Below, piece by piece: positions 13,239 to 40,071 of a DNA stretch of 64,000 nucleotides. Both the position numbers and the translations under genes were made by a program. Positions within the stretch are counted from its first letter, which is position 1, and each line of letters begins with the position of its first letter. The stretch comes from Microbacterium galbinum. GTDB lineage: Bacteria; Actinomycetota; Actinomycetes; Actinomycetales; Microbacteriaceae. Where the stretch lies: NCBI RefSeq assembly GCF_023091225.1, contig NZ_JAHWXM010000001.1:1550001-1614000 (forward strand), given 5' to 3'. The notes under the pieces are model-generated. The model was not told the DNA's origin and did not search any database. It was given only the letters and a program-made list of their open reading frames with translations.

Positions 13239-13252
13239 TTGAAACGTACCAA
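13239..13252. promoter_or_regulatory. LacI-type operator before apnL
   Basis: TTGAAACGTACCAA lies 36 bases before the apnL start. It is closely related to the sites at 20687, 20810, 26228 and 35387. TTGCCC (13210-13215) and CAGGAT (13234-13239), 18 bases apart, form a possible promoter that the operator immediately follows, so binding would repress. Confidence 0.6.
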
Positions 13253-13287
13253 TCCGGGCGATGGCCCACCTCGTGCAAGGACGCATC

Positions 13288-16298: not shown

Positions 16299-16320
16299 GG
16301 CCGCGCGGGCGGGCCAGGGC

Positions 16321-17325
16321 TCAGGCCGTCGAGGCGCGCGCGACGAGTTCGGGCTGGAACACGATGTGCTCGGGCGCACGGCCCGGGTCGTCGGCGCTCT
16401 CGAGCAGCAGGCGCATCGCCGTCTCGCCCATGAGGTTGCTCGGTTGCCGCACCGACGAGAGGGGCACGGCCGCAGCCGCCGCGAAGTCGATGTCGTCGAA
16501 GCCGATCAGAGCGACGTCCTGGGGCACGCGGATGCCGTTCGTCAGCAGTCCCTGCAGCACCCCGAGCGCCACGAGGTCGTTGGCGCAGAAGATCGCGTCG
16601 GGGCGTTCCGACGCCGCGAGTGCGGCGACCTGATCGCCCGCGAGACGACCGGCGTCGACCGTCGACGCCACCGAGGGAAGCGTGTCGAGCACGGCGCCGG
16701 GCACCCCCGCGATCGCGCGGCGTGCACCGCCGAGGCGGTCTTCCACCTGACGCATGTCGAGGGGGCCGCCGGCGAAGAGGATGCGACGACGACCGGTGTC
16801 GAGCAGGTGGCGAGCCGCGAGGTACCCGCCGGTCTCGTCGTCGACCGAGACGCTGCTGAACGAGTCGTCGGCGCCGCGCCGGTCGACGAGCACGGCGGGG
16901 ATGCCCCGGTCGCGCATCCGGCGCAGGCGCGGTCCCGCCTCCTGATAGGGCGAGAGCAGGATGCCGCGCACGCGCTGCTGCTCGAAGAGGTCGATGTGCC
17001 GGGCCTCCTGCGCGACGTCCTCGTCACTGTTGGCGAGCACGACCGAGAGTCCGTGTCGGGCGGCTTCGCGCTCGGCGCCGCGGGCGAGCTCGGTGAAGAA
17101 CGGGTTGCGCACGTCGAGCACCACCAGGCCGACCATCAGACTGTGCCCCGCGCGCAGTTGACGGGCGGCGTCGTTGCGCACGTACCCGAGCTCGGCGATC
17201 GCCTCGTGCACGCGCCGGACGGAGTCCTCTTTGACGCGGTCGACGTGGTTGAGCACGTTCGAGACGGTGCCCACCGACACCCCGGCGCGGTCGGCGACGT
17301 CGCGGATGCTCGCGGCCACGGTCAT
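16321..17325 (-). CDS. LacI-family transcriptional regulator 1
   Basis: A 334-residue sugar-responsive repressor. The N-terminal helix-turn-helix is ASIRDVADRAGVSVGTVSN with a hinge (VNVLNHVDRV-type region) before a periplasmic-binding-protein-like sensor domain (about 60-334, including IFCANDLVALGVLQGL and VALIGFDDIDFA). The ATG at 17325 overlaps the stop of the second LacI gene, so both are transcribed together. It probably binds the TGAAACG-type operators found around the locus. Which sugar it senses is unknown. Confidence 0.85.
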   Translation of the reverse strand: MTVAASIRDVADRAGVSVGTVSNVLNHVDRVKEDSVRRVHEAIAELGYVRNDAARQLRAGHSLMVGLVVLDVRNPFFTELARGAEREAARHGLSVVLANSDEDVAQEARHIDLFEQQRVRGILLSPYQEAGPRLRRMRDRGIPAVLVDRRGADDSFSSVSVDDETGGYLAARHLLDTGRRRILFAGGPLDMRQVEDRLGGARRAIAGVPGAVLDTLPSVASTVDAGRLAGDQVAALAASERPDAIFCANDLVALGVLQGLLTNGIRVPQDVALIGFDDIDFAAAAAVPLSSVRQPSNLMGETAMRLLLESADDPGRAPEHIVFQPELVARASTA

Positions 17326-18329
17326 GCCCTCCCGGTGCTCGCGCGCACCACGAGCTGGGGTTCGAACATCCGATGCGGCGCGGCGATCGCGTTGCCGCCG
17401 ATCGCATCGAAGAGCAGGTCGACCACGGCGATGCCGAAGCCGTCGTGGCGGCCCATGACGCTCGTGAGCGGGATGAGCGAGGCCTCCGCGAACTCGATGT
17501 CGTCGTAGCCGACGATCGCGGTCTGCCGCGGAACCTCGACCCCGCCGGCGACGAGCGCGTTCATGATGCCGAGCGCGAGGAGGTCGTTCGCGGCGAAGAT
17601 GCCATCGGGCATCATGTCCGACGGGCGCGAGAGCAGCGCCGCTCCGATCCGCTTGCCGCCGCGCACCGTGCGATCGGGCTCGTCCATCACCTCGAGCGTC
17701 GCCGCCCCGAACTCGCGCACGACCTCTCCCGCACCGGCCAGACGCCCCGAGACCTGCGGGATGTCGAGCGGGCCACCGACGAACAGCAGGCGACGGCATC
17801 CGACCTCGATCAGGTGCTGCATCGCCTGGCGCCCGCCCGAGACCTCGTCGAGCGAGACGGAGGGCTGCTCGTCGGACTGCCCGCGCTGGCCGACCAGCAC
17901 CGAGGGCGTGCCGCGACGGCGCACCTGCGCGAGGCGGTCTTCAACGGGCAGGTGCGACGACATGAGCAATCCCTGCACGCGGTACTGCTCGAAGAGCTGG
18001 ATGTAGTCGTTCTCGCGGTCGCGGCTTCGGTGAGAGTTGGCGAGGAACACGGTGAAGCCGAGCTCGCTGGCGCGCAGCTCGACGCTCTCGGCGATCTCGG
18101 CGAAGTACGGGTTGCTCACGTCGGGCGCGATGTAGCCGATCGCACTGCTCACCCCGAGGCGCAACTGCCGACCGGCGTTGCTGGGCACGAACCCGAGCGA
18201 GTCGATCGCGGCGCGGATGCGCTCGGCCTTGTCGGCCGAGACGCGGTCGGGGTGGTTGAGGTAGTTCGACACGGTACCCACGGCCACACCCGCGAGCACC
18301 GCCACGTCACGGATTCCGACTCGGGCCAT
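17322..18329 (-). CDS. LacI-family transcriptional regulator 2
   Basis: A 335-residue LacI repressor. Its recognition helix (AVGTVSNYLNHPDRV) is very similar to that of the adjacent regulator, while the sensor domain differs more. That suggests shared or overlapping operators with different inducers. AAGGAGG precedes the ATG at 18329. The pair lies between the apnL/GH63-like unit and the GH3 gene, all of which have the same operator type nearby. Likely represses this locus until a plant sugar is present. Confidence 0.85.
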   Translation of the reverse strand: MARVGIRDVAVLAGVAVGTVSNYLNHPDRVSADKAERIRAAIDSLGFVPSNAGRQLRLGVSSAIGYIAPDVSNPYFAEIAESVELRASELGFTVFLANSHRSRDRENDYIQLFEQYRVQGLLMSSHLPVEDRLAQVRRRGTPSVLVGQRGQSDEQPSVSLDEVSGGRQAMQHLIEVGCRRLLFVGGPLDIPQVSGRLAGAGEVVREFGAATLEVMDEPDRTVRGGKRIGAALLSRPSDMMPDGIFAANDLLALGIMNALVAGGVEVPRQTAIVGYDDIEFAEASLIPLTSVMGRHDGFGIAVVDLLFDAIGGNAIAAPHRMFEPQLVVRASTGRA

Positions 18330-18409
18330 GCGCGGCCTCCTTCGGCTCGGTGATCGATCAGTCACTTTACCGGCTCCTCTGCGACGCACCCGGAGCGGCA
18401 CACGCACGC

Positions 18410-20707
18410 TCAGCCACGGCGTTCCCAGACCGGTTCGTCGGCGATCGCGTCGACGCGCTGCACGTCTCCGATCAGGTCGATCTCGATGGCCTGCCCCTCG
18501 TCCGCGGCATCCGCGGCCACCCGTAGCACGATGCGACCGGGTTCGACGATGCGATGCCCCGCGACACCGGTGAAGGCGAAGGCGGCAGCGGGGATTCGCA
18601 CCCGCCACGTCTGCGCCTCCCCCGGGGCCAACCGCACCTTGTGGAACGCGACGAGCTGGCGGAGAGGACGCACGACCTGCGCCGCCGGGTCGCTCGCGTA
18701 GACCTGCAGCACGTCGGCTCCCTCGCGGTCGCCCGCGTTGCGCACCGTGACCTCGGCCTCGACGACGCCGTCGACGGCGACCCGGGTCTCTGCGACGCTC
18801 AGTCCGTCTCGCACGAAGGTCGTGTACCCGAGGCCGTGGCCGAACGGATGCCGCGGCGTCGGGTCGGCCGAGCTGACGCCGGTGAGCGATCCGAGCTTCG
18901 GGGCGAGGTAGCTGCCCGGCTGCGGGGTGCCCGGCCGGGGCATCTGCACGGGGAGACGGCCCGAGGGCGAGGTGACCCCGAGGAGAGCATCCGCGATGGC
19001 CGGCCCGCCCTCCTGCCCGGGGAAGAACGCCTGCACGACGGCCGCGCAGCGGTCGGCGGCGGCGCCGAGCGCGTAGGGGCGACCGGTCAGCAGCACGAGC
19101 ACGACCGGACGACCGGTCTCGACGAGCGCGTGGAGCAGCTGCTCCTGCACCCCGGGCAGACTCAGGTCCTCGCGGTCGCAGCCCTCGCCCGACGTGCCGC
19201 GTCCGAACATCCCGGAGTCGTCGCCCATCACCGCCACGACCACGTCCGCGGCGAGCGCGACCGCGACCGCCGCGTCGATCCCGGAGACGTCGTCGTCCAT
19301 GACGGCGCAGCCCTCGACGACATCGACCTCACCCGGCCAGCGCCCGCGCAGCGCCTCGGCGACCGTGGGCGCGGCGATCAGCGTATCGACCTCGGGATGC
19401 CGGGGCAGCACGTGCTTCACGAAGGAGTAGCACCCGAACACCGCCCCGAAGCGGTCGGCGTTCGGACCGACGACGGCGAGCCGTGGGGTGCGCCCTGCAT
19501 CGAGCGGCAGAACACCGTCGTTCTGGAGCAGCACGATCGAGGCATCCGCCATCTCGCGCGCGAGCGCGCGATTGGCCGCGGAGTCGAGGTCGACGGTCGC
19601 ATCGCCCTCGGGTGCGGCCGGCTCCAGCAACCCCAGATCGCGCTTCTGCCGCAGCACGCGGCGCAGAGCGCGGTCGACGAGCGACTCGTCGATCCGCCCG
19701 CTCTCGACCGCGGCGACGAGCGGCGCGAGGTAGTCGGAGCCGGTGGGGAGTTCGACGTCGATGCCGGCCGAGAGCGCGAGCACCGCCGCGTCTTCGCCAT
19801 CGGCGGCGACCCCGTGCATCGTCTCGAGGAACCGCACGGCGAAGTAGTCGGCGACCACGGTGCCGTCGAAGCCCCAGCGGTCGCGCAGGATGCCGGTGAG
19901 CAGGTCGGCGGATGCCGCGGCCGGAACCCCGTCGACGTCGTTGTAGGCGTTCATGACCGAGCGGGCCCCCGCGCGGATCGCCCGCTCGAACGGCGGCAGG
20001 TGGACATCGGCGAGTTCGCGCAAACCGACCGAGACCGGCGCGTGATTGCGGCCCGCCCGCGACCCCGAGTACCCGGCGAAGTGCTTGAGCGTGGCGACCA
20101 CCCCCGCCGATTCGAGGCCGCGCACGTAGGCACTGCCCACGACGCCGACCGTGAACGGGTCTTCGGCGATGCACTCCTCGACGCGTCCCCAACGGGCGTC
20201 GCGCACGACGTCGAGCACGGGGCCGAGCCCCTGATGCACGCCGAGCGCGCGCAGGTCCTCGCCGATCCGCCGGCTGAGACGTTCGGTGAGCGCCGGGTCG
20301 AACGCGGCGCCCCAGGCCAGCGGGGTCGGGTAGGTCGTCGCTCCCCAGGCGAGGACGCCGGTGAGGCACTCCTCGTGCACGAGAGCGCGGATGCCGGTGC
20401 GCTCGGTGAGAGCACTCTGGCGGCGGCGCAGCTCGGCGGTGCCCGCCTCGACCGTGATCGGCGTGGTTCCCCAGTGACGCGTGAGCTGGCCGAGGCCGTG
20501 CGCGGCGAACTCCTCGACGTGCATGCCGTCGGCGATCAGCTGATCCTGCATCGGGGCGGCGTTGTCGTCGCGGCGGGCGCCGGCCCACAGCCCCACCAGC
20601 TGGGCCGTCTTCTGCGCGAGCGTCATCTCGGCGATGAGTCGATCGACCGCGTCGTCGACGACCACCTCGTCGTCGACCGCGGCTGATTGTGACGTTTCAA
20701 TGCTCAT
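18410..20707 (-). CDS. Glycoside hydrolase family 3 enzyme
   Basis: A 765-residue GH3 enzyme. It has an N-terminal TIM-barrel-like domain (VDRLIAEMTLAQKTAQLVG), a nucleophile Asp287 in GTVVADYFAV, the KHFAGYSGS motif typical of the active site, a second alpha/beta domain (about 400-600) and a C-terminal fibronectin-III-like domain (EVTVRNAGDREGADVLQVY). No signal peptide, so cytoplasmic. The ATG at 20707 follows AAGGATG; an in-frame ATG at 20725 lacks a site. GH3 members cleave beta-glucosides, beta-xylosides or alpha-arabinosides; specificity is not readable. It is divergent from the sugar importer. Confidence 0.88.
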   Translation of the reverse strand: MSIETSQSAAVDDEVVVDDAVDRLIAEMTLAQKTAQLVGLWAGARRDDNAAPMQDQLIADGMHVEEFAAHGLGQLTRHWGTTPITVEAGTAELRRRQSALTERTGIRALVHEECLTGVLAWGATTYPTPLAWGAAFDPALTERLSRRIGEDLRALGVHQGLGPVLDVVRDARWGRVEECIAEDPFTVGVVGSAYVRGLESAGVVATLKHFAGYSGSRAGRNHAPVSVGLRELADVHLPPFERAIRAGARSVMNAYNDVDGVPAAASADLLTGILRDRWGFDGTVVADYFAVRFLETMHGVAADGEDAAVLALSAGIDVELPTGSDYLAPLVAAVESGRIDESLVDRALRRVLRQKRDLGLLEPAAPEGDATVDLDSAANRALAREMADASIVLLQNDGVLPLDAGRTPRLAVVGPNADRFGAVFGCYSFVKHVLPRHPEVDTLIAAPTVAEALRGRWPGEVDVVEGCAVMDDDVSGIDAAVAVALAADVVVAVMGDDSGMFGRGTSGEGCDREDLSLPGVQEQLLHALVETGRPVVLVLLTGRPYALGAAADRCAAVVQAFFPGQEGGPAIADALLGVTSPSGRLPVQMPRPGTPQPGSYLAPKLGSLTGVSSADPTPRHPFGHGLGYTTFVRDGLSVAETRVAVDGVVEAEVTVRNAGDREGADVLQVYASDPAAQVVRPLRQLVAFHKVRLAPGEAQTWRVRIPAAAFAFTGVAGHRIVEPGRIVLRVAADAADEGQAIEIDLIGDVQRVDAIADEPVWERRG
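20687..20700. promoter_or_regulatory. LacI-type operator inside the GH3 start region
   Basis: TTGTGACGTTTCAA on the plus strand (TTGAAACGTCACAA on the minus strand) is identical in sequence to the site at 26228. It lies over codons 3-7 of the GH3 gene, so it could act as a roadblock to GH3 transcription or loop with the site at 20810. Confidence 0.55.
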
Positions 20708-20775
20708 GGATTCATCCTTGCGCATCCGCCCGACGGCCGCCGAACTTCCTCACCGCGCCTCAGAACAGTTTTCGT

Positions 20776-20804
20776 TTGACAGGCCACAGATCTCCCCCTA
20801 ACAT
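20776..20804 (+). promoter_or_regulatory. Promoter of the ABC sugar importer
   Basis: TTGACA (20776-20781) and TAACAT (20799-20804) are separated by exactly 17 bases, close to the vegetative sigma consensus. The LacI-type operator follows five bases downstream. Confidence 0.75.
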
Positions 20805-20809
20805 CAGTT

Positions 20810-20823
20810 TTGAAACGTCTCAA
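20810..20823. promoter_or_regulatory. LacI-type operator at the importer promoter
   Basis: TTGAAACGTCTCAA starts six bases after the -10 box, over the expected transcription start. Repression by one of the two LacI proteins is the natural reading. Confidence 0.7.
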
Positions 20824-20852
20824 TAACGAGATATCACTTTCAAGGAGGAAAT

Positions 20853-22154
20853 GTGTTCACAGCAGAACGGCGGCGCCTTCGCAAGCCGCTCCTCAGCGTT
20901 GCCGCTCTGGCCAGCGCCGGGGTTCTCATCCTCTCCGGCTGCGCCGGTGACAGCGGATCGGGTGCGACCACCTTCGAGTTCCTGAAGAACTCCGAGAACA
21001 CCACCACGCAGCCGGTGCTAGAAGCCCTCGCCGGCGACCAGTGCGCCGCCGAAGAAGAGGCTATGCCCCTCGAGTTCAACTCGGCACCGCAGGCCGACCT
21101 CGACGCCCAGGTGCAGCTGCTCGCCACGCAGGACGAACTGCCCCCGATCTTCTCCGCCGGCGGCAACCCCTCCGAGGGCGCGAAGCTCGCCAAGGGCGGC
21201 TACCTCGTCGACTTCGACGAGAAGCTGACCGAGCTCGGCGTGCGCGACAAGATCGCCGAAGGCGCCGTGTCGACCATCAAGAAGCTCTACGGCGGCGAGT
21301 TCAACTTCCTGCCGTTCCAGTACAACATCGAGGGCATCTGGTACAACAAGCAGATCTTCGAGGAGCAGGGCTGGGACGTCCCCGAGAGCTGGGACGACCT
21401 CACCACCATCGCCGCCGAGGCCAAGGCCGCGGGCTACACGCCGTTCACGGCATCCGGCGAGCAGGGCTGGCCCATCACCCGCCTCATCTCGAGCTACCTC
21501 TTCCGCTCGGTCGGTGACGACGCGCTCGAGAAGGTCGCGTCCGGCGACGCCAAGCTGACCGACCCCGAGTACGTGGCCGCCGCGCAGGCGATCGCCGACC
21601 TCGGCGCCGAAGGCTACTTCGACGCGAACGTCACCTCGCTCGACATCGACAGCTCCTACAACGAGTTCCTCACGGGCAAGGCCGCCATGATCTACATGGG
21701 CAGCTGGATCCTCGGCAACATCAACGGAGACGGCAACCAGATCGGCGCCGACAACGTCGGGTTCTTCAACTTCCCGGCCGTCGAGGGTGGCAAGGGCACG
21801 CCCGACGCCTACCCGTCGAACGTCGGCCTGCCGGCCACGATGAGCAACGCCGCCTACAACGAGGGCACCGGCGCCTGGCTCGGCTGCATCGCCGAGAACT
21901 ACGGCAACGAGGCGCTCGAGCAGGGCCAGATCACCGGCTTCATCGCCGACGACGCCGACGTCGAGCTGCCCGCGATCTCGCAGACGATCGCCGACGAGAT
22001 CTCCACCAGCACCGACAGCGTGCTGTGGTTCGAGGCGCTCTTCAACGCGAAGGCGAGCAACATCTCGTCGACCAACGCCGCGCTGCTCGTCACGGGCCAG
22101 CTCACGGCCGAGGAGTTCATGACCCTCGTCCAGGACGCTCTCGACGCCGGTTGA
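20853..22154 (+). CDS. ABC sugar transporter substrate-binding lipoprotein
   Basis: A 433-residue binding protein of the carbohydrate uptake (CUT1) type. The lead peptide ends in the lipobox LILSGCAG with Cys30 as the lipidated residue, so it is anchored outside the membrane. The body shows typical features such as GIWYNKQIFEEQGWDVPESW and a GKAAMIYMGSW segment. The GTG at 20853 has AAGGAGGAAAT in front. Downstream permeases follow after a stable hairpin. No ATPase gene is present; a shared MsiK-type ATPase elsewhere is the usual actinobacterial solution. Confidence 0.9.
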   Translation: MFTAERRRLRKPLLSVAALASAGVLILSGCAGDSGSGATTFEFLKNSENTTTQPVLEALAGDQCAAEEEAMPLEFNSAPQADLDAQVQLLATQDELPPIFSAGGNPSEGAKLAKGGYLVDFDEKLTELGVRDKIAEGAVSTIKKLYGGEFNFLPFQYNIEGIWYNKQIFEEQGWDVPESWDDLTTIAAEAKAAGYTPFTASGEQGWPITRLISSYLFRSVGDDALEKVASGDAKLTDPEYVAAAQAIADLGAEGYFDANVTSLDIDSSYNEFLTGKAAMIYMGSWILGNINGDGNQIGADNVGFFNFPAVEGGKGTPDAYPSNVGLPATMSNAAYNEGTGAWLGCIAENYGNEALEQGQITGFIADDADVELPAISQTIADEISTSTDSVLWFEALFNAKASNISSTNAALLVTGQLTAEEFMTLVQDALDAG

Positions 22155-22159
22155 TCCGC

Positions 22160-22200
22160 ACCGGCTCCGCGCACTCGTACCCGGAGTGCGCGGAGCCGGT
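22160..22200 (+). terminator. Perfect 17-bp intercistronic hairpin
   Basis: ACCGGCTCCGCGCACTC (22160-22176) pairs with GAGTGCGCGGAGCCGGT (22184-22200) with a 7-base loop, then TCTCTCG. Placed between binding protein and permease genes, such stems usually attenuate read-through or protect the upstream message, giving excess binding protein. Confidence 0.75.
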
Positions 22201-22241
22201 TCTCTCGTCTCACCCCCTCTACACCCGAAAGGCCGCCACGC

Positions 22242-23123
22242 ATGAAGTCCGTCCTCGGCGACCGGAAGACGATCCTGCTGCTGCTCCTGCCGGCACTGGT
22301 CATCTATACGCTCATCACCATCGTCCCCGTGCTCTGGTCGTTCGGCCTCACGTTCTTCACCGGCAGCATCCTCGAAGGCTTCGAGTTCAACGGCATCGAG
22401 AACTTCCAGCGGCTCTTCTCCGACCAGTACGTCGCCGACGCCTTCTGGTTCACGATCCGCTACGCGCTGCTGACCACCCTGTTCCAGGTCGTGCTCGGCT
22501 TCGGACTCGCGCTGCTCTACCACTTCGTGCTCCGCCGCTCCTCGGTCATCGTCCGCACTCTGGTGTTCTTCCCCGTCGTGCTCCCGACCGTCGCGATCGG
22601 CATCCTGTACCAGAAGCTCTTCCAGTCGGCCCCCGGCGACGGCCTCGTCAACGAGCTGCTCGTGAACGTCGGCCTCAGCAACATCGACTGGCTCGGCGAC
22701 GGCGCGACCGCGTTCGTCGTCATCGTCATCATGGACGTCTGGCGCTCCGCCGGCTTCTACGGCATCCTCGTCTTCTCCGGCCTGCTCGACATCCCCGACG
22801 AGATCATCGAGTCGGCCCGTCTCGACGGCGCGAAGTCGTTCAGCCTCTTCCGCTACATCGTGCTCCCGATGTCGCTGCCGATCCTCTTCGCCTCGATGAT
22901 CTTCAGCATCAACGGCACGATCAAGGTCTTCGACTCGGTCTTCGCCCTCACCGGCGGCGGCCCCGGCAACGCGACCACGCCGCTGACGATGTACATGTAC
23001 CGCACGGCGTTCCAGTACAGCGACTTCGGCTACGGCTCGACCGTCGCCCTCGTGCTCACGATCATGTGTCTGCTGATCACGCTCGTCATCTTCCGCTCGT
23101 CGCGTCGCGACAACACCGTCTGA
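22242..23123 (+). CDS. ABC sugar transporter permease 1
   Basis: A 293-residue inner-membrane permease with six hydrophobic segments. The EAA-type loop IESARLDGAKSFSLFRYIVL contacts the ATPase. It belongs to the MalF-like CUT1 group. The ATG follows the hairpin by about 40 bases with GAAAGG upstream. It pairs with the next permease. Confidence 0.9.
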   Translation: MKSVLGDRKTILLLLLPALVIYTLITIVPVLWSFGLTFFTGSILEGFEFNGIENFQRLFSDQYVADAFWFTIRYALLTTLFQVVLGFGLALLYHFVLRRSSVIVRTLVFFPVVLPTVAIGILYQKLFQSAPGDGLVNELLVNVGLSNIDWLGDGATAFVVIVIMDVWRSAGFYGILVFSGLLDIPDEIIESARLDGAKSFSLFRYIVLPMSLPILFASMIFSINGTIKVFDSVFALTGGGPGNATTPLTMYMYRTAFQYSDFGYGSTVALVLTIMCLLITLVIFRSSRRDNTV

Positions 23124-23133
23124 GGACAGCATC

Positions 23134-24042
23134 ATGACCACCACACTCGACACGACGGCCGTTCCCAGCGCGAAGGCGTTCGTCCCGCACCGCCGCGGTC
23201 CCGCAGCGATCGCCCTCGGCATCCTGCGCAAGATCCCGACCTGGCTGACCATCGCGGTGCTCGTCATCGTGACGGCCTACCCGCTGTTCTGGATGTTCAT
23301 CAACTCGCTGAAGTCGAACAACGAGTTCCTCAACAACCCCTCGTACACGCTCCCCGAGAACTGGCGATGGGACAACTACGCCGTCGCCTGGGAGACCGGC
23401 AACCTCGCCACCACGATCACGAACTCGCTGATCGTCACGGTGCCGTCGCTCGTGTTCATCGTGCTGCTCGGCACGGCGGCGGGCTACGCGCTCGAGATCA
23501 TGGTCTTCAAGGGCCGCGCCTCGGTGCTGCTGCTGTTCCTGGCGGGCATCATGATCCCCGGGCAGATGATCATCCTGCCGCTGTTCAACGCCTTCTCGAA
23601 GATGGGCCTCAGCGGCTCGTACCTGCCGATGATCCTCATCTACGTCGCGGGCGGCCTTCCGCTCACGGTGTTCATGATGGCGACGTACTTCCGCGCGATC
23701 CCCCGCGAGATCTTCGAAGCCGCGACGATCGACGGCGCCTCGATGCTGCGTTCGTTCTTCGCGATCGGCCTGCCGATGATGAAGAACGCGATCTTCACGG
23801 TCGCGATCGTGCAGTTCTTCCTCATCTGGAACGACCTGCTCATCGCCCTCGTCTTCGGCGGCAAGAGGAGCCTCAACACGATCCAGGTCGGGCTCCTCAA
23901 CTTCTCGGGCGAATACGGCGCGATCAACTACGGCCCGCTGTTCGCCGCGATCTGCGTGACGGTGTTCGGCATCCTGATCATGTACCTCTTCCTCAACCAG
24001 CGCATCATGAAGGGCCTCGCGGCCGGCGCGGTCAAGGGCTGA
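23134..24042 (+). CDS. ABC sugar transporter permease 2
   Basis: A 302-residue MalG-like permease with six hydrophobic segments. The EAA loop is IFEAATIDGASMLRSFFAIG and the C terminus is GLAAGAVKG, as usual for this partner. The gene starts ten bases after permease 1 ends and is followed by a strong terminator, so the importer operon has three genes. Confidence 0.9.
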   Translation: MTTTLDTTAVPSAKAFVPHRRGPAAIALGILRKIPTWLTIAVLVIVTAYPLFWMFINSLKSNNEFLNNPSYTLPENWRWDNYAVAWETGNLATTITNSLIVTVPSLVFIVLLGTAAGYALEIMVFKGRASVLLLFLAGIMIPGQMIILPLFNAFSKMGLSGSYLPMILIYVAGGLPLTVFMMATYFRAIPREIFEAATIDGASMLRSFFAIGLPMMKNAIFTVAIVQFFLIWNDLLIALVFGGKRSLNTIQVGLLNFSGEYGAINYGPLFAAICVTVFGILIMYLFLNQRIMKGLAAGAVKG

Positions 24043-24058
24043 GACCCGCGACGACGAA

Positions 24059-24089
24059 GGGGGCGGATGCTGCGGCATCCGCCCCCTTT
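24059..24089 (+). terminator. Rho-independent terminator of the importer operon
   Basis: GGGGGCGGATGC (24059-24070) pairs with GCATCCGCCCCC (24075-24086) with a 4-base loop, followed by TTT. Confidence 0.88.
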
Positions 24090-24109
24090 CGCGTCCCCGT
24101 CCGGGTGGT

Positions 24110-24430: not shown

Positions 24431-24451
24431 GAAGCGTCCCCTCCGAGAGCG

Positions 24452-25332: not shown

Positions 25333-25335
25333 GCG

Positions 25336-26227: not shown

Positions 26228-26241
26228 TTGAAACGTCACAA
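26228..26241. promoter_or_regulatory. LacI-type operator, GH78/epimerase gap (site A)
   Basis: TTGAAACGTCACAA lies in the divergent gap. On the minus strand TAGAAT (26247-26242) overlaps its edge and could be the -10 box of the epimerase-like gene, which would then be repressed. Confidence 0.65.
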
Positions 26242-26281: not shown

Positions 26282-26295
26282 CTGAAACGTTTCGA
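26282..26295. promoter_or_regulatory. LacI-type operator, GH78/epimerase gap (site B)
   Basis: CTGAAACGTTTCGA contains the perfect 10-bp palindrome GAAACGTTTC (26284-26293). It lies 18 bases before the GH78 start and 54 bases from site A, so it can control the long plus-strand operon. Confidence 0.65.
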
Positions 26296-28949: not shown

Positions 28950-29635
28950 CCCGCGTCGCCTTCCTGCACACCGGGGCCGTCGTGATCGCCCCGGTCGTCG
29001 ACGCCGCCCGCGCGGCCCTGCCCGACGCGACGTTCGTGAACTACCTCGACGACCGGATCGTCGCCGATCTGGGCGACGCGGAGCGCGCGGCATCCGTCGC
29101 CGACCGTCTCGCGCACCTCGCCGGCGCCGCGCGCGATGCCGGAGCCGACGTCGTCATGCTCACGTGCTCGTCGATCTCGGGCTACGCGGCTCCCACCGCC
29201 GAGCGTGCCGGCATCCCCGTGCTGCGCATCGACGAGGCGATGGCCGATCGGGCCGTCGCCACGGGCGAACGCATCGCCGTGATCGCCACCCTCCCGACCA
29301 CCCTCGCCCCGACCGTCGCGCTGCTGCGCGAGCGCGCCGCGATCGCCGGTGTCGAGCCGACGATCCTCGACGAGGTCGTCGACGGGGCGTTCGCCGCGGT
29401 CTCGGGAGGGGATCGCCCGCAGCACGACGCACTCGTCGCCGCTGCGATCGAACGCCTGGCCGCCCACGCCGACGTCGTCGTGCTCGCCCAGGCCTCGATG
29501 GCCTCGGCGGCCGAGAGCGCCCGCGTCACCGTGCCGGTGCTCACCAGCATCGCGCCGGGGGTCGCACGACTCGCCGAGCTGCTCGCGAACGACGATCCCG
29601 ATACCCGCACCGCGACCCCGGAGGACGCCCGATGA
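28946..29635 (+). CDS. Asp/Glu racemase-family protein, one catalytic Cys missing
   Basis: A 229-residue protein of the aspartate/glutamate/hydantoin racemase superfamily. The first cysteine is present in VVMLTCSSISGY. The second position, usually a Cys, reads VVLAQASMAS and so lacks it. With only one cysteine the usual two-base racemisation is unlikely; the fold may serve as an isomerase, decarboxylase or lyase. Start and stop overlap GH78 and GH127 (ATGA both times). Its fixed place in this sugar operon suggests a role in handling a released sugar acid. Function unassigned. Confidence 0.7.
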   Translation: MTRVAFLHTGAVVIAPVVDAARAALPDATFVNYLDDRIVADLGDAERAASVADRLAHLAGAARDAGADVVMLTCSSISGYAAPTAERAGIPVLRIDEAMADRAVATGERIAVIATLPTTLAPTVALLRERAAIAGVEPTILDEVVDGAFAAVSGGDRPQHDALVAAAIERLAAHADVVVLAQASMASAAESARVTVPVLTSIAPGVARLAELLANDDPDTRTATPEDAR

Positions 29636-31614: not shown

Positions 31615-31618
31615 CCCG

Positions 31619-34136: not shown

Positions 34137-34606
34137 AGCGCGCGTCGATCGGGTGGCGTGCGCAGTTCCTTCGCGATGATCAGAGATGTCGGCACGTGCC
34201 CCGCCGCAAGCACGACAGCGCTGGCGGCGATGAACGGATTGCCCAGCAGCCCACTCGCAGCGAGGTAGACCAGCACGGGGAGCGCGGCCATCGGTACCGG
34301 CAGCGCCCACGTTCGCCGATAGAGCGAATCCGGGGTGCGCTCGACGACGTACCGTGCCCACAGGGCGTAGTACGCGACCAGCGCCAGCCCGCCGGGCACC
34401 GCCCACCACACGCTCATCGCGCCGGGGAGCGTGACGGCCGGCACGACCAGGCACAGCGCTTGGCCGCTGCGCTCCAGCACGGCGAGCACGCCGGGAACTC
34501 GCGGTCGGGGGAGCGGCGACCGCGGCGGAAGCAACCACAGCAGAAACGTGGGAGCCAGCACCGCCAGGGAAATACCCAAGCCCCACGGTGAGAATCCCAT
34601 GGCCAC
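34133..34606 (-). CDS. Small integral membrane protein
   Basis: A 157-residue protein with about four hydrophobic segments (GISLAVLAPTFLLWLL, LCLVVPAVTLPGAMSVWW, LPVPMAALPVLVYLAASGLL and later). It converges on the kinase gene with a 4-base overlap at their ends. GTG at 34606 or ATG at 34600 are both possible starts. No function recognised. Confidence 0.6.
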   Translation of the reverse strand: MAMGFSPWGLGISLAVLAPTFLLWLLPPRSPLPRPRVPGVLAVLERSGQALCLVVPAVTLPGAMSVWWAVPGGLALVAYYALWARYVVERTPDSLYRRTWALPVPMAALPVLVYLAASGLLGNPFIAASAVVLAAGHVPTSLIIAKELRTPPDRRAL

Positions 34607-34609
34607 AGG

Positions 34610-35323
34610 CTACCGAGCCACCCCTTCACCTCTGTCGCGCAGGATCCGGGAGAGACGACTCTTGCGCAGATTCTGCGCGACGATCCAGCCCACGTCGGGA
34701 TGGTCGGAATCCAGCCCGAGGAAGGCGTCCAGGGCTATGTCGGGGTCCGCCGACACGACGACGCTCCAGCAGTAGCCGAGGGTCTGGCGCAGGACTCGCA
34801 CGTCCGGAGCACGACGGCGCTCGCTCGGCCAGGTGACGAAGCGCGCCGTGGTCGTCGCGCAGACGCCGAGAGCATCGCCGACCGTTCGCGGGTCGCGCAG
34901 CAGCCGCGGCTCGCAGATCGCCGCAACCGCCGCGCGCTGGAGGAGCGGATCGGTCTCCTCCGCCCAGGACTTCACGATGGAGAGAAGCGCGGCGATGTCC
35001 CGATCGCCGAGAAGCTGCAGACCGATGACCGCTCCTTCGCGGACGCGCCACCGCTGGTCCTCGGCGTGGCCACGCAGTCGCCTGAGGACGTCGGCGTCGT
35101 CGGATCGAGCACCGCGGGATGCGGCGACGCACATCATCGCGAACTCGTCATCGGTCTTCTCGAGTTCGGCTATCACCGCCGGTTCGGCTGTGCGAGCTAC
35201 TGCGGAGACGAGTGCGAGGTTCGCGCGGGGACCGGGAAGCCCGGAATGCGCGATGAGGAATTCGGGCCACCCGGTGGAGGGGAGCGCCCGAAGCCTCGTC
35301 TCCCATTCGACGTCGTCGGTCAT
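34610..35323 (-). CDS. HEAT-repeat-like protein
   Basis: A 237-residue helical protein with repeated pairs of helices and the spacing of HEAT/DNA-alkylation-repair-like repeats (DADVLRRLRGHAEDQRWRVR, GAVIGLQLLGDRDIAALLS, LQRAAVAAICEPRLLRDP). Such scaffolds bind proteins or DNA. The ATG at 35323 is preferred over a longer frame that runs into the rhamnose promoter. Not obviously related to sugar use; it separates the two sugar operons. Confidence 0.65.
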   Translation of the reverse strand: MTDDVEWETRLRALPSTGWPEFLIAHSGLPGPRANLALVSAVARTAEPAVIAELEKTDDEFAMMCVAASRGARSDDADVLRRLRGHAEDQRWRVREGAVIGLQLLGDRDIAALLSIVKSWAEETDPLLQRAAVAAICEPRLLRDPRTVGDALGVCATTTARFVTWPSERRRAPDVRVLRQTLGYCWSVVVSADPDIALDAFLGLDSDHPDVGWIVAQNLRKSRLSRILRDRGEGVAR

Positions 35324-35357
35324 CGCCCGATGATACCCATTCGCTTGCCGTCGGCAG

Positions 35358-35386
35358 TTGACGGATCTCTCGTACTGCCGTAACTT
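35358..35386 (+). promoter_or_regulatory. Promoter of the rhamnose operon
   Basis: TTGACG (35358-35363) and TAACTT (35381-35386) are 17 bases apart, near consensus for the vegetative sigma factor. The operator begins right after the -10 box. Confidence 0.75.
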
Positions 35387-35400
35387 ATGAAACGATTCAT
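35387..35400. promoter_or_regulatory. LacI-type operator of the rhamnose operon
   Basis: ATGAAACGATTCAT has ATGAA/TTCAT arms and the same TGAAACG core as the other sites. It covers the probable transcription start, so the rha operon appears to be controlled by a LacI regulator rather than by an AraC-type RhaR/RhaS. Confidence 0.7.
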
Positions 35401-35421
35401 CTTTACAGAAAGCGAGTGACA

Positions 35422-36588
35422 ATGTCCGTCCTCACCCCTGACCACCTCGCCGCGCTCGAGAAGCAGGGCATCGAGCTTCCCAGCTGGGCTTTCGGCAACT
35501 CCGGCACGCGCTTCAAGGTGTTCGGCACCCCCGGCACGCCGCGCGACCCGTGGGAGAAGATCGCGGATGCCGCGCAGGTCAACACCTACACGGCTCTGGC
35601 GCCGAGCGTGGCGCTGCACATCCCGTGGGACCTCGTCGACTCGTTCTCCGACCTGCGCAAGCACGCCGAAGATCTCGGCGTGACGCTCGGCACGGTCAAC
35701 TCCAACACCTTCCAGGACGACGACTACAAGTTCGGCGCCCTCACCCATGAAGACGCCGCGATCCGCCGGAAGGCGATCGACCACCACCTCGCGTGCATCG
35801 ACGTCATGGATGCCACCGGCAGCCGCGACCTCAAGATCTGGCTCGCCGAGGGATCGAACTACCCCGGCCAGGCCGACCTGCGTGGCCGCCAGGACCGCCT
35901 GCAGGAATCGCTCCAGCAGATCTACGCCCGCCTCGGCGACGACCAGCGACTCGTGCTGGAGTACAAGTTCTTCGAGCCGGCGTTCTATCACACCGATGTT
36001 CCCGACTGGGGCACCTCGTACGCGCAGGTGGTCTCGCTCGGCGACAAGGCATCCGTCTGCCTCGACACCGGCCACCACGCCCCCGGCACGAACATCGAGT
36101 TCATCGTCATGCAGCTGCTGCGCCTCGGCAAGCTCGGATCGTTCGACTTCAACTCGCGCTTCTACGCCGATGACGACCTGATCGTCGGCGCCGCCGACCC
36201 GTTCCAGCTCTTCCGCATCCTCTTCGAGGTCGTGCGCGGCGGCGGTCTGAACAACCCCGATGTCGCGTTCATGCTCGACCAGTGCCACAACGTCGAAGAC
36301 AAGATCCCCGGCCAGATCCGCTCGGTGCTCAACGTGCAGGAGATGACCGCCCGCGCGCTGCTCGTCGACCGCGACGCCCTCACCGCCGCGCAGAAGTCCG
36401 GCGACGTGCTCGCCGCGAACGCGATCTTCATGGACGCGTTCTATACCGACGTGCGCCCCGCCCTCGCTGAGTGGCGCGAGTCGCGTGGCCTCGCCGCCGA
36501 CCCGATGGCCGCCTACGCGGCATCCGGCTACCAGCAGAAGATCGCCGCAGAACGAGTCGGTGGCGTGCAGGCCGGCTGGGGCGCCTGA
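35422..36588 (+). CDS. rhaI: L-rhamnose isomerase
   Basis: A 388-residue metal-dependent TIM-barrel isomerase converting L-rhamnose to L-rhamnulose in the cytoplasm. It is of the Pseudomonas/actinobacterial RhaI type. Conserved segments include EGSNYPGQADLRGRQDRLQE, CLDTGHHAPGTNIEFIV and FDFNSRFYADDDL, the last two carrying metal-binding His and Asp residues. ATG at 35422 with GAAAGCGAG upstream is preferred over GTG at 35416. First gene of the rhaI-rhaD-rhaB operon. Confidence 0.92.
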   Translation: MSVLTPDHLAALEKQGIELPSWAFGNSGTRFKVFGTPGTPRDPWEKIADAAQVNTYTALAPSVALHIPWDLVDSFSDLRKHAEDLGVTLGTVNSNTFQDDDYKFGALTHEDAAIRRKAIDHHLACIDVMDATGSRDLKIWLAEGSNYPGQADLRGRQDRLQESLQQIYARLGDDQRLVLEYKFFEPAFYHTDVPDWGTSYAQVVSLGDKASVCLDTGHHAPGTNIEFIVMQLLRLGKLGSFDFNSRFYADDDLIVGAADPFQLFRILFEVVRGGGLNNPDVAFMLDQCHNVEDKIPGQIRSVLNVQEMTARALLVDRDALTAAQKSGDVLAANAIFMDAFYTDVRPALAEWRESRGLAADPMAAYAASGYQQKIAAERVGGVQAGWGA

Positions 36589-36628
36589 GCGCGCCGTCCC
36601 TCGACCCCTCGATCAAGGAACACCACTC

Positions 36629-38665
36629 ATGACGAACCCGACCGCCGCCGACCTGATCGCGCGCAGCAACCGCCTGGGCGCCGACCCGAAGAACACCAAC
36701 TACGCCGGTGGCAATACCTCCGCCAAGGGCACCGAGATCGACCCCGTGACGGGGCAGCACGTCGAGCTGCTGTGGGTGAAGGGCTCGGGCGGCGACCTGG
36801 GCACCCTCACCGAGAAGGGCTTGGCCGTGCTGCGTCTCGACCGCATGCGCGCGCTGGTCGACGTGTACCCCGGCATCGACCGCGAAGACGAGATGGTCGC
36901 GGCATTCGACTACTGCCTGCACGGCAAGGGCGGAGCCGCTCCTTCGATCGACACGGCCATGCACGGACTCGTGGATGCCGCGCACGTCGACCACCTGCAC
37001 CCCGACTCCGGCATCGCGATCGCGACCGCCGCCGACGGCGAGGCCCTGACCTCGAAGATCTTCGGCGAGAAGGTCGTGTGGGTGCCGTGGCGCCGCCCGG
37101 GCTTCCAGCTCGGACTCGACATCGCCGAGATCAAGAAGGCGAACCCCCAGGCGATCGGCTGCATCCTCGGCGGCCACGGCATCACGGCGTGGGGCGACAC
37201 GTCCGACGAAGCCGAGGCGAACTCGCTGTGGATCATCGACACCGCAGCCTCGTACATCGCCGAGCACGGGAAGACCGACCCGTTCGGCGGCGTCCGCACC
37301 GGCTTCGAGGCACTGCCGTCCGGCGAGCGCCGCGAGCGCGCCGCCGCTCTGGCCGGCACGATCCGCGGCATCGCCTCGCACGACCGCGCGATGGTCGGCC
37401 ACTTCACGGATGCCGCGGAGGTGCTCGACTTCCTCGCCTCCGAGAAAGCCCCGGCCCTCGCCGCGCTCGGCACGAGCTGCCCCGACCACTTCCTGCGCAC
37501 CAAGGTCAAGCCGCTGATCCTCGACCTGCCGGCCACGGCATCCGCCGAGGAGCAGATCGCGCGCCTGCACGAGCTGCACGCCGAATACCGCGCCGACTAC
37601 CAGGCGTACTACGACGCACATGCGACCGCCGAGTCGCCCGCGATCCGCGGCGCCGACCCGCTCATCGTGCTCGTTCCCGGCGTGGGCATGTTCTCGTACG
37701 GCGCGAACAAGCAGACGGCGCGCGTCGCCGGCGAGTTCTACGTCAACGCGATCAACGTCATGCGCGGGGCCGAGGCGCTCTCGACCTACTCCCCCATCTC
37801 CGATGCCGAGAAGTTCGACATCGAGTACTGGGCGCTGGAGGAGGCCAAGCTGCAGCGGATGCCGAAGCCGAAGTCGCACCAGGGGCGCATCGCGTTCGTG
37901 ACCGGCGCGGCGTCCGGCATCGGCAAGGCCATCGCCACCCGTCTCGCGGCCGAGGGCGCCTGCGTCGTCATCGCCGACCTCGACCTCGAGAAGGCGCAGG
38001 CCGCGGCGACGGAGCTCGGAGGCACCGACGTCGCGATCGGCGTCGCGGCGAACGTGGCGGATGCCGACGCGATCCAGGCGGCTCTGAACGACGCCGTACT
38101 CGCGTTCGGCGGCGTGGACCTCGTCGTCAACAACGCCGGCCTCTCGCTCTCGAAGCCGCTGCTCGAGACCACCGAGAAGGACTGGGATCTGCAGCACGAC
38201 GTCATGGCGAAGGGCTCGTTCCTCGTGTCGAAGGCCGCCGCGCGTGTGCTCATCGACCAGAAGCTCGGCGGCGACATCATCTACATCTCGTCGAAGAACT
38301 CCGTCTTCGCCGGTCCGAACAACATCGCGTACTCGGCGACCAAGGCCGACCAGGCCCACCAGGTGCGGCTGTTGGCGGTCGAGCTCGGGGAGTACGGCAT
38401 CCGCGTCAACGGGATCAACCCCGACGGCGTCGTGCGCGGCTCGGGCATCTTCGCCTCGGGCTGGGGCGCCAACCGCGCCGCGACCTACGGGGTCGCCGAA
38501 GAGGACCTCGGCCAGTTCTACGCCAACCGCACGATCCTCAAGCGCGAGGTCGTTCCCGAGAACGTGGCGGATGCCGTGTACGTGCTGACCGGCCCCGAAC
38601 TGAGCCGCACCACCGGCCTGCACATCCCGGTCGACTCCGGCGTCGCCGCCGCGTTCCTGCGATGA
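36629..38665 (+). CDS. rhaD: Bifunctional rhamnulose-1-phosphate aldolase / alcohol (lactaldehyde) dehydrogenase
   Basis: A 678-residue fusion. The N-terminal class II aldolase domain (about 1-410) contains HVDHLHPDSGIAIATA and GGHGITAWG, the zinc-binding His region. The C-terminal short-chain dehydrogenase (about 418-678) has TGAASGIGKAIATRL at 425-439 and the catalytic YSATK. It splits L-rhamnulose-1-phosphate into dihydroxyacetone phosphate and L-lactaldehyde, and the second domain then oxidises lactaldehyde. AAGGAACAC precedes the ATG. Length and order match the bifunctional RhaD/RhaE type. Confidence 0.92.
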   Translation: MTNPTAADLIARSNRLGADPKNTNYAGGNTSAKGTEIDPVTGQHVELLWVKGSGGDLGTLTEKGLAVLRLDRMRALVDVYPGIDREDEMVAAFDYCLHGKGGAAPSIDTAMHGLVDAAHVDHLHPDSGIAIATAADGEALTSKIFGEKVVWVPWRRPGFQLGLDIAEIKKANPQAIGCILGGHGITAWGDTSDEAEANSLWIIDTAASYIAEHGKTDPFGGVRTGFEALPSGERRERAAALAGTIRGIASHDRAMVGHFTDAAEVLDFLASEKAPALAALGTSCPDHFLRTKVKPLILDLPATASAEEQIARLHELHAEYRADYQAYYDAHATAESPAIRGADPLIVLVPGVGMFSYGANKQTARVAGEFYVNAINVMRGAEALSTYSPISDAEKFDIEYWALEEAKLQRMPKPKSHQGRIAFVTGAASGIGKAIATRLAAEGACVVIADLDLEKAQAAATELGGTDVAIGVAANVADADAIQAALNDAVLAFGGVDLVVNNAGLSLSKPLLETTEKDWDLQHDVMAKGSFLVSKAAARVLIDQKLGGDIIYISSKNSVFAGPNNIAYSATKADQAHQVRLLAVELGEYGIRVNGINPDGVVRGSGIFASGWGANRAATYGVAEEDLGQFYANRTILKREVVPENVADAVYVLTGPELSRTTGLHIPVDSGVAAAFLR

Positions 38666-40071
38666 GCACCCGCGCCGTCGCGGCCGTCGACCTCGGCGCG
38701 ACCAGCGGCCGGGTGATGATCGGCCGCATCGGCGACGGCGTGCTCGACCTCGAGCCCGTCTCGCGGTTCCCGAACGGTCCCGTCGAACGCGCCGACGGCC
38801 TGCACTGGGACTTCGAGGCCCTCTCCGAGAACGTGCTCGACGGCCTGGCCGAGGCGGTCCGCCGCGAGCCCGGGATCGAGAGCATCGGGATCGATTCCTG
38901 GGCCGTCGACTACGGGCTGATCGCGGGCGGGAAAGTGCTCGCCGAGCCGTTCCACTACCGCGACGAGCGATCCGCTCGCGGCGTCGCGGAGGTGCACGAG
39001 ATCGTCGCGTTCGACGAGCTCTACCGCCGCAACGGCCTGCAGTTCCTGCCGTTCAACACGCTCTATCAGCTGCGCGTCGACGACCGCGCTCCCGAGGCCG
39101 AGAGCGCGCTGCTCGTGCCCGACCTGCTCGCCTTCCTCCTCACGGGCGCGCGCGTGGCCGAGCGCACCAATGCCTCGACCACCGGGCTCCTCCGCGTCGA
39201 CGACGCGGAGTGGGACACCGACCTCGCCTCCCGTCTCGGCATCGCTCCCGCGCTCCTGCCCGCACTCGTCGACCCCGGCGCGCTCATCGGCACCCTGCGT
39301 CCGCAGATCGCCCGCCGGATCGGCGCCGACCTCCCGGTGATCGCGGTCGGCTCGCACGACACGGCCTCCGCCGTCGCCGCGGTTCCGATGACGTCTCCCT
39401 CCGCCGCGTACATCTCGTGCGGCACGTGGGGACTCGTCGGCGTCGAGCTCGCGGAGCCCGTGCTGACGGATGCCGCCCGCGCGGCGAACTTCACGCACGA
39501 GCGCGGTGTCGACGGGCGTTTCCGGTTCCTGCACAACGTGGCGGGCCTGTGGCTGCTGAGCGAGACCGTGCGGGCCTGGGAGGCCGAGGACGGCGCTCCG
39601 ATCGATCTGGTCGCTCTGCTGGCCGCGGCATCCGCCGTCACCGCACCCGTGCCGACCTTCGACGCGAACGACCCGTCGCTCTCGGCGCCGGGTGGCATGC
39701 CCGCGCGTATCGGCGCCCTGCTCGCCGCGAGCGGGCAGACGGCCCCGACCGACCGACCCGCGTTCGCGCGCAGCATCGTCGAGTCGATCGCGGTGGCGTT
39801 CGCAGAAGCTGTGGCGACGGCATCCGCTCTCACCGGGCGCCGCCTCGACGTCGTGCACATCGTCGGCGGCGGATCCCTCAACACCCTGCTGTGCCAGGCG
39901 ACCGCCGACCGCACCGGGCTCCCGGTGCTCGCCGGCCCCGTCGAGGCCACAGCGCTCGGCAACGTGCTCGTGCAGGCGCGGGCGCTCGGTGCAGCGCCGG
40001 CGACGCTCGAGGAGCTGCGTGCCCTCGTGGCCGCGACGCATGCCCCCGTGCGCTACACGCCGCACACCTGA
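38662..40071 (+). CDS. rhaB: Rhamnulokinase
   Basis: A 469-residue FGGY-family sugar kinase. The N-terminal phosphate loop is VDLGATSGRVMIGR, the substrate-site region SIGIDSWAVDYGLI, and the second domain has SHDTASAVAAVP and IVGGGSLNTLLCQ. It phosphorylates L-rhamnulose to L-rhamnulose-1-phosphate. Its ATG overlaps the rhaD stop. No mutarotase gene (rhaM) or dedicated rhamnose transporter is present in the operon. Confidence 0.92.
   Translation: MSTRAVAAVDLGATSGRVMIGRIGDGVLDLEPVSRFPNGPVERADGLHWDFEALSENVLDGLAEAVRREPGIESIGIDSWAVDYGLIAGGKVLAEPFHYRDERSARGVAEVHEIVAFDELYRRNGLQFLPFNTLYQLRVDDRAPEAESALLVPDLLAFLLTGARVAERTNASTTGLLRVDDAEWDTDLASRLGIAPALLPALVDPGALIGTLRPQIARRIGADLPVIAVGSHDTASAVAAVPMTSPSAAYISCGTWGLVGVELAEPVLTDAARAANFTHERGVDGRFRFLHNVAGLWLLSETVRAWEAEDGAPIDLVALLAAASAVTAPVPTFDANDPSLSAPGGMPARIGALLAASGQTAPTDRPAFARSIVESIAVAFAEAVATASALTGRRLDVVHIVGGGSLNTLLCQATADRTGLPVLAGPVEATALGNVLVQARALGAAPATLEELRALVAATHAPVRYTPHT

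Follow-up and report, generated by a model that had tools for sequence, protein, structure and literature searches.

What does a RuBisCO-like protein (RLP) do in an operon with plant-sugar hydrolases? The question is raised by a sugar-use locus of Microbacterium galbinum, which lies in the 64 kb stretch analysed here (the window; positions 1,550,001-1,614,000 of contig 1, in a genome of 3.57 Mb). The core operon of the locus, on the forward strand, encodes a GH78 enzyme, a protein of the Asp/Glu racemase fold, a GH127 enzyme, the RLP and a DUF1537 sugar acid kinase, and its adjacent genes overlap or lie 4 bases apart (Table 1). A preliminary description had read the whole as a combined locus for apiose, rhamnose and arabinofuranose, assigning the RLP and kinase to apiose breakdown and taking GH127 for an L-arabinofuranosidase. 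All of the gene families that it named were found in place by gene calling, Pfam and NCBIfam. Its rhamnose set and link to rhamnogalacturonan II held up, its ApnL-like lactonase is plausible and co-regulation of the locus is likely; the assignments of the RLP and kinase to apiose and of GH127 to L-arabinofuranose were not supported.

Gene content, gene linkage, an RLP tree, conserved residues and operators point, with somewhat better than even confidence, to a rhamnogalacturonan II side-chain regulon that includes a cassette for aceric acid (3-C-carboxy-5-deoxy-L-xylose); the substrates and reactions are deduced from these observations. A wider proposal is more tentative, and is given slightly less than an even chance. 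It holds that the cassette represents an undescribed aceric acid route in Actinomycetota, present also in Planctomycetota and Chloroflexota by way of separately recruited RLPs, and that the RLP would have a new function, the decarboxylation of aceric ketose 1-phosphate to a 5-deoxy-pentulose 1-phosphate. Labels beginning with "L" and "G" are our own names for the loci and genomes of relatives. Those identified are L034 (M. galbinum), L049 (Desertihabitans), L110 (Bythopirellula, Planctomycetota), L101 (a metagenome-assembled genome of Anaerolineae, Chloroflexota) and G179 (Humibacter).

Aceric acid is a constituent of rhamnogalacturonan II and is known to be released by a GH127 enzyme, BT1003 of Bacteroides thetaiotaomicron (PMC10850190 and PMC5698469). 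Among the open-access papers searched, most of them by title and abstract opening, and with subscription papers outside this scope, no description of the breakdown of free aceric acid was found, and open-access titles and abstract openings on Microbacterium and rhamnogalacturonan II likewise contained nothing on aceric acid breakdown. If the proposed route is true, it would close the gap that follows aceric acid release and add a new function to the RuBisCO-like family, and the cassette would serve as a marker of bacteria that use rhamnogalacturonan II. It would also expose an annotation trap, in which the RLPs and kinases resemble apiose enzymes by best model and GH127 can be mistaken for an arabinofuranosidase.

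The GH127 Enzyme

The window GH127 is closest to aceric acid hydrolase. Its only NCBIfam match is the aceric acid hydrolase model NF049879, with 741.8 bits, below the curated cut-off of 950. Its best PDB chain is 5mqo (581 bits, followed by chains at 324, 256 and about 250), an entry titled beta-L-arabinofuranosidase that we take to be BT1003. The Glu and Cys motifs of the aceric acid hydrolase are kept. An ordinary beta-L-arabinofuranosidase was considered and rejected, as the other GH127s listed from the same family of bacteria score about 338-435 with NF049879, compared to 741-742 for that of the window. Over 299 genomes of this family the model gives 7 matches at 638-765 bits, the next being at 435 and below. 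A search across the phylum added nothing above 560 bits except the window itself, and in Planctomycetota GH127s of the aceric type (at least 743 bits) are found in 3 of 189 genomes. GH127s linked to the same genes elsewhere score higher, at 1019.5 bits in L101, which is over the cut-off, and 943 bits in L110. In a published tree, nearly all characterised enzymes are beta-L-arabinofuranosidases, the exception being BT1003 (PMC10850190). The window gene probably starts at the ATG at 29632, which has a likely ribosome site upstream; the alternative called start is at 29713.

A further family, c3 (574 aa, no Pfam match), occurs in 11 RLP loci of Paenibacillus, Cohnella and Kribbella, for example at 7545-9269 of L057. 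It aligns with GH127 in hhalign (92.6%, E 4.5e-7) and has conserved HETC and CC motifs, the Glu/Cys motif being shared. Its structure model is poor (pLDDT 56.7; TM-scores to GH127 of 0.33-0.38), so that the kinship rests mainly on hhalign and the shared motif. The c3 family is a candidate new glycosidase family, apparently related to GH127 at a remote level.

Linkage and Phylogeny of the RLP

The same 7 of the 299 family genomes carry both an aceric-type GH127 and this RLP (62% identity or more), and in all seven the two genes lie within 1.3 kb of each other. RLP matches in general (E 1e-20 or better) are found in 18 of these genomes, 7 at 62-100% identity to the window RLP and 5 at 46-49%; three of the latter (L027, L028 and L030) sit with ApnL and ApnO. 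The genome of the window has one RLP only, which is 99% identical to that of L034. A wider protein search with the RLP gave 6783 matches among 7996 proteins scored.

A quick tree of 91 rows was made from 80 named loci, 13 fetched stretches and the window, after removal of L046 and L048 (copies of L023 and L025) and of L075 (a piece of 281 aa). ApnO-linked RLPs serve in it as the apiose reference, and no characterised OiaX is among the rows. Aceric-type GH127s accompany 27 of the 91 rows. Twenty-five of these fall in one actinobacterial group of 29 rows (support 93), which includes the window RLP and has no row with ApnO within 6 kb; they are not independent, because several are close kin. The other two, L110 and L101, are placed among the ApnO-linked rows. 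The placement of the window RLP outside the ApnO-linked group goes against its preliminary assignment to apiose breakdown. When the 27 linked rows and the 4 remaining rows of the actinobacterial group, a set picked after the tree had been viewed, were forced into one clade, this was rejected (p-AU, the P value of the approximately unbiased test, 0.00096). The same test on the 27 rows alone (p-AU 1e-53) is not relied on, as four rows nested among them confound it. Because one clade is rejected, the linkage of GH127 and RLP fits three separate origins.

The 27 loci with both genes come from three phyla. The racemase-fold gene is present in all 27 and the kinase in 26, the contig ending in the remaining one (L047), and in 23 of them GH127 and RLP lie on one strand with a gap of at most 72 bp. 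ApnO is found in 1 of these 27 loci (L056), compared to 29 of the 64 RLP loci without an aceric-type GH127. All 27 aceric-linked RLPs, and all 27 ApnO-linked RLPs compared with them, have the seven RuBisCO-type catalytic residues K155, K181, D183, E184, H268, H270 and K310.

Other RLPs were seen in other settings. In L031 (8442-12728) and L029, a Zn-alcohol-dehydrogenase-like gene accompanies the RLP and a DUF1537 kinase, and no ApnO, racemase-fold or GH127 match was found in these stretches. L032 and L033 have RLPs of 30-31% identity at about 9300-10600, in a different neighbourhood that is common to both genomes. The RLP of L045, whose record is titled Planococcus sp., groups with Microbacterium, and the source is probably a misnamed actinobacterium.

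Proposed Route

In the proposed route, the importer would take up small oligosaccharides, from which GH78, GH127 and GH3 would free sugars inside the cell. Rhamnose would be used through RhaI, RhaB and RhaD, and apiose through ApnL and a separate operon that has no RLP. Aceric acid would be freed by GH127 and converted by an isomerase to its 2-ketose, HOCH2-CO-C(OH)(COO-)-CHOH-CH3, which the DUF1537 kinase would phosphorylate at C1. The RLP would then take CO2 off the tertiary carbon, which would leave a 5-deoxy-pentulose 1-phosphate. Finally, a class II aldolase of the RhaD type would split this product into dihydroxyacetone phosphate (DHAP) and acetaldehyde. RhaD is present in all seven family genomes with the cassette, and lies next to the cassette in the window.

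The chemistry has a close model in oxidative D-apiose breakdown, where OiaX is expected to remove CO2 from a phosphorylated 2-carboxy-3-keto compound. The apiose intermediate 3-oxo-isoapionate is HOCH2-CO-C(OH)(COO-)-CH2OH. The aceric acid ketose is its one-carbon homologue with the same reacting part, so that a kinase of the OiaK branch could place phosphate on the corresponding hydroxyl and an RLP of the OiaX branch could take off the corresponding carboxylate. This apiose pathway with OiaK and OiaX was reportedly described by Carter et al. (2018, Nat Chem Biol). It is also covered in PMC6302742. Like this pathway, the window pairs a DUF1537 kinase with a same-branch RLP that keeps the RuBisCO-type residues checked. 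It differs in that the cassette lacks ApnO and has an aceric-type GH127 and a racemase-fold gene, that the RLP lies outside the ApnO-linked group, and that the proposed substrate is one carbon longer.

If the decarboxylation product had C3 and C4 arranged as in L-xylulose, it would be what RhaD makes from DHAP and acetaldehyde. Were the RLP to protonate the other face, a C3 epimerase would be needed, and a cofactor-free racemase fold would suit this role. The racemase-fold protein may be either the isomerase or an epimerase that acts at C3 of the RLP product; the epimerase role would explain why three loci that have ApnO also have its gene near the RLP.

The proposed last step resembles salvage of the 5-deoxyribose type, for which PMC6302742 gives as a proposal that 5-deoxyribulose 1-phosphate is cleaved by an aldolase into acetaldehyde and DHAP. 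In the salvage route and here, an aldolase would act on a 5-deoxy-pentulose 1-phosphate, and unlike in salvage the phosphate ester would come from decarboxylation by the RLP. The window GH127 is like BT1003 in its best model, its best PDB match and its motifs, and unlike it in scoring under the curated cut-off and in sharing its operon with genes for an RLP and a kinase.

Other Cassette Genes

In the racemase-fold protein, C74 is the only Cys that is invariant in 17 sequences. The position of the second Cys, which is present in the allantoin/hydantoin racemase 3qvj, reads LAQ(A/G)S, and the protein thus lacks the second catalytic Cys of two-cysteine Asp/Glu racemases. Its predicted structure (pLDDT 94.4) has racemase-like fold matches. 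A role as simple replacement of ApnO was rejected, as both are found near the RLP in the acidobacterial loci L089, L099 and L100. These loci hint at a role later than the RLP step, on the ketose phosphate.

Two further genes are present in the L110 cassette. One is fucose-isomerase-like (PF02952, 32 bits, cut-off 29.3); the other encodes a class II aldolase that is matched best by models of the RhaD-type bifunctional family, at scores far under their cut-offs. These correspond to two of the steps that the proposed route needs. In addition, 15 of the 27 loci with GH127 and RLP have a GH2 beta-galactosidase, the PDB matches of these GH2s being beta-galactosidases. For Bacteroides, a GH2 enzyme has been published whose target in rhamnogalacturonan II is Gal-beta-1,2-aceric acid (PMC11739564).

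The Apiose Genes and the OiaX/OiaK Alternative

The window ApnL-like protein scores 190.9 bits with NF049900, below the cut-off of 750, as do the ApnLs of ApnO operons in L027 (220.5) and L115 (212). Its orthologues beside ApnO in relatives have 41-53% identity to it (41-52% for those of L115, L116, L117, L118, L120, L121 and L122), which makes the lactonase named in the preliminary description plausible. The genome of the window has one ApnO homologue, at 2,339,474, about 0.76 Mb away, with 44% identity to the ApnO of L027. Its operon also encodes a GntR regulator, a DhaK-type kinase, RpiB, TIM and a PF01261 barrel, and contains no RLP or DUF1537 gene. The PF01261 protein is only a sugar-isomerase-like barrel, and an assignment as LerI was rejected; it may be OiaC-like, judging from its place in the operon.

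ApnO and the PF01261 gene also lie near the ApnL orthologues of relatives that include G273, G016 and G106 (L120-L122), and in G003 (L123, called in part) ApnL and ApnO share one stretch of 18 kb. No RLP match at E 1e-20 was found in any of these four genomes. DhaK- and RpiB-type genes are present in G273 and G106, and not in the G016 stretch. Moreover, of the 51 family genomes (among 299) with an ApnL-like match, 41 have no RLP match at all. Conversely, ApnO was not found in three genomes with the cassette, namely G107, Desertihabitans and Bythopirellula. The RLP cassette and the ApnL/ApnO system thus each occur without the other, which argues that the window ApnL works with the distant operon and that the RLP and kinase serve something else. 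Apiose breakdown here most likely uses the separate, RLP-free operon, and the window ApnL probably acts with it, as judged from these gene distributions. In Humibacter, both systems and an apiosidase-like gene lie in one island, as expected of a rhamnogalacturonan II user.

The best-placed alternative treats the RLP and kinase as diverged forms of OiaX and OiaK, fed by the window ApnL and the distant ApnO, with GH127 adjacent merely since both serve rhamnogalacturonan II. It is considered unlikely, given the cassettes without ApnO, the ApnL and ApnO genomes without an RLP, the position of the window RLP outside the ApnO-linked group, and the PF01261 enzyme, DhaK-type kinase and isomerases that the ApnO operon has of its own.

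A number of observations nevertheless favour this alternative and weigh against the aceric acid reading. The best-scoring models are still OiaX for the RLP (NF042437, 402.1 bits) and OiaK for the kinase (NF042436, 258.5 bits), both below their cut-offs of 700. The OiaX score does not separate the groups, because the RLP of the ApnO operon in L027, the only such RLP scored, also fails (448.6) and the GH127-linked RLP of L110 reaches 513.5, again below 700. The L027 kinase, at 395.8 with the OiaK model, is likewise below 700. ApnO homologues are present in six of the seven family genomes with the cassette (that of the window and five of its six relatives), three of which have it at a distance of 12-16 kb from the RLP, and in five of six further named actinobacteria; in L056, ApnO and a cassette with aceric-type GH127 lie within 10 kb. 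With ApnO in most cassette genomes, feeding of the RLP from apiose is possible. In three of the seven family genomes with the cassette, a genome search with PF13204 found apiosidase-like genes about 8-17 kb from the RLP. The apiosidase-like gene that adjoins ApnL in a fourth of them, G179, was found by hmmscan and was not reported by that genome search.

The RLPs outside Actinomycetota also count here. Fourteen columns separate the actinobacterial aceric-linked RLPs from the ApnO-linked RLPs. At these columns the L101 RLP has the ApnO-type residue in 14 of 14 and the aceric type in none, and the L110 RLP has the ApnO type in 6 and the aceric type in 1. A reading of the columns as specificity residues was rejected, as they follow the tree and not the context, which makes convergence in L101 and L110 less likely; no shared specificity signature can thus be seen in the sequences. 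The L101 genome also has an ApnO homologue (41%) on another contig, and its RLP may act on apiose.

Other points against the aceric acid reading concern the cassette itself. The actinobacterial GH127s are all under the NF049879 cut-off, and in seven other genomes of the phylum GH127s score 511-558 bits, with an RLP in one of the seven, on another contig. Four of the 29 rows of the actinobacterial group have no GH127 in their stretch, three being Kribbella loci with c3 and the fourth L055, a cut contig. The racemase-fold gene is found in 15 of the 64 RLP loci without an aceric-type GH127, 3 of them with ApnO. In the window, no isomerase is assigned for the aceric acid step, and no GH2 was found in the locus; a genome-wide search found no PF13204 apiosidase. 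The lack of both hydrolases suggests that the organism may import oligosaccharides trimmed by others. Finally, a distant BT1003 homologue in Zobellia serves carrageenan use (PMC5698469), so that GH127 homology leaves the substrate unfixed.

The remaining alternative is that the cassette degrades another branched or 2-carboxy-3-keto sugar acid of plants, with a GH127 specific for neither aceric acid nor L-arabinofuranose. This alternative is quite improbable, no further acid of this kind being known to us from plant walls, and the GH127s of L101 and L110, over and just below the cut-off respectively, being linked to the same genes; what speaks for it is the lower score of the window enzyme, the Zobellia homologue with its different role (PMC5698469) and the 11 loci of Paenibacillus, Cohnella and Kribbella in which relatives of the RLP lie near c3.

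LacI-Type Operators

The aceric acid operon shares its predicted operators with the other sugar genes of the locus. The pattern WTGAAACGWTTCAW, derived from palindromes seen in promoter gaps, was searched with at most 2 mismatches. In the window it gives 12 strand matches at 6 positions, where 0.43 would be expected, and no shuffle out of 100 gave as many as 12; 2 of the 6 sites had served to write the pattern and the other 4 had not. In the 64 kb searched, all 6 positions fall in promoter gaps of the sugar locus. These six LacI-type sites suggest that the locus is a single LacI-controlled regulon, in line with the co-regulation foreseen in the preliminary description. The window rhamnose set, which is like actinobacterial rhaI-rhaD-rhaB sets in its RhaI and bifunctional RhaD-dehydrogenase, differs from them in sharing operators with the aceric acid operon.

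The whole genome has 13 positions that match the pattern, 6 of them in the sugar locus. One position outside (L136) matches on both strands; it was rejected as a further regulon member, as its 3 kb show no sugar gene by eye, no family search having been made. The genome-wide pattern search found no site near the distant ApnO operon. In relatives, sites matching on both strands lie upstream of the orthologous genes for rhaI (L035, L045), the substrate-binding protein (L021, L035, L036) and GH78 (L021, L036). Such two-strand sites occur in 12 of 103 loci, which include the near-identical L034 and one duplicate (L046/L023); 4 of the 12 are from Bacillota and are likely chance matches.

Gene Inventory and Surroundings

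The rhamnose set is complete as first described, with RhaI and the bifunctional RhaD over their curated cut-offs. No ATPase gene is among the genes called in the locus for the ATP-binding cassette (ABC) importer, and no signal peptide is visible by eye in GH78, GH127 or GH3. The gene for a short-chain dehydrogenase/reductase (SDR) adjoins GH78 also in L021, L117 and L118.

Table 1. Genes and predicted operators of the sugar locus, in window coordinates
Feature	Position	Strand	Evidence or remark
LacI-type operator before apnL-like gene	13239-13252		2 mismatches; 13239 is also the locus start in the preliminary description
ApnL-like lactonase, 591 aa	13261-15036	+	NF049900 190.9 bits, cut-off 750
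GH63/MGH1-like glycoside hydrolase, 421 aa	15033-16298	+	PF22422 best, 110 bits; GH63 weaker, 49 bits
LacI-family regulator 1	16321-17325	-	PF00356, PF13377
LacI-family regulator 2	17322-18329	-	PF00356, PF13377
GH3, beta-xylosidase/alpha-L-arabinosidase type, 751 aa	18410-20665	-	NF052329 1044.6 bits, cut-off 1050
LacI-type operator, GH3/importer gap	20687-20700		2 mismatches
LacI-type operator, GH3/importer gap	20810-20823		1 mismatch
ABC importer substrate-binding protein	20853-22154	+	PF01547 86 bits; lipoprotein-like N terminus by eye
ABC importer permease 1	22242-23123	+	PF00528
ABC importer permease 2	23134-24042	+	PF00528
NAD-dependent epimerase/dehydratase-like SDR, 276 aa	25336-26166	-	PF01370 73.9 bits; absent from the preliminary description
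LacI-type operator, SDR/GH78 gap	26228-26241		2 mismatches
LacI-type operator, SDR/GH78 gap	26282-26295		2 mismatches
GH78 alpha-L-rhamnosidase, 878 aa	26313-28949	+	PF17389 401 bits; opens the five-gene operon
Asp/Glu-racemase-fold protein, 229 aa	28946-29635	+	PF01177 63.9 bits; absent from the preliminary description
GH127, aceric acid hydrolase type, 660 aa	29632-31614	+	NF049879 741.8 bits, cut-off 950
RLP, 417 aa	31619-32872	+	PF00016 219.5 bits; OiaX model 402.1 bits, cut-off 700
DUF1537 (SBD_N/NBD_C) sugar acid kinase, 423 aa	32865-34136	+	PF07005 161 bits; OiaK model 258.5 bits, cut-off 700
LacI-type operator before rhaI	35387-35400		0 mismatches
rhaI, L-rhamnose isomerase	35422-36588	+	TIGR02635 628.4 bits, over cut-off 531.35
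rhaD, bifunctional rhamnulose-1-phosphate aldolase/short-chain dehydrogenase	36629-38665	+	NF006188 1331.5 bits, over cut-off; TIGR02632 1022.4 bits, over cut-off 567.75
rhaB-like rhamnulokinase	38662-40071	+	TIGR02627 best model, 382.2 bits, below cut-off 527.95

The 1.3 kb gap between the kinase gene and rhaI (34137-35421) contains only a doubtful open reading frame on the minus strand (34610-35176), with a weak HEAT match under the cut-off. The locus is flanked by tRNA genes at 13008-13097 and 41416-41500. Upstream of it, positions 1-12952 have a GC content of about 0.61-0.62, compared to 0.66-0.72 past 12 kb, and contain a serine recombinase gene (1415-3085) and a tyrosine integrase gene (11654-12952) that adjoins the first tRNA gene. 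This region resembles a mobile element that has integrated at a tRNA gene and borders on the sugar locus.

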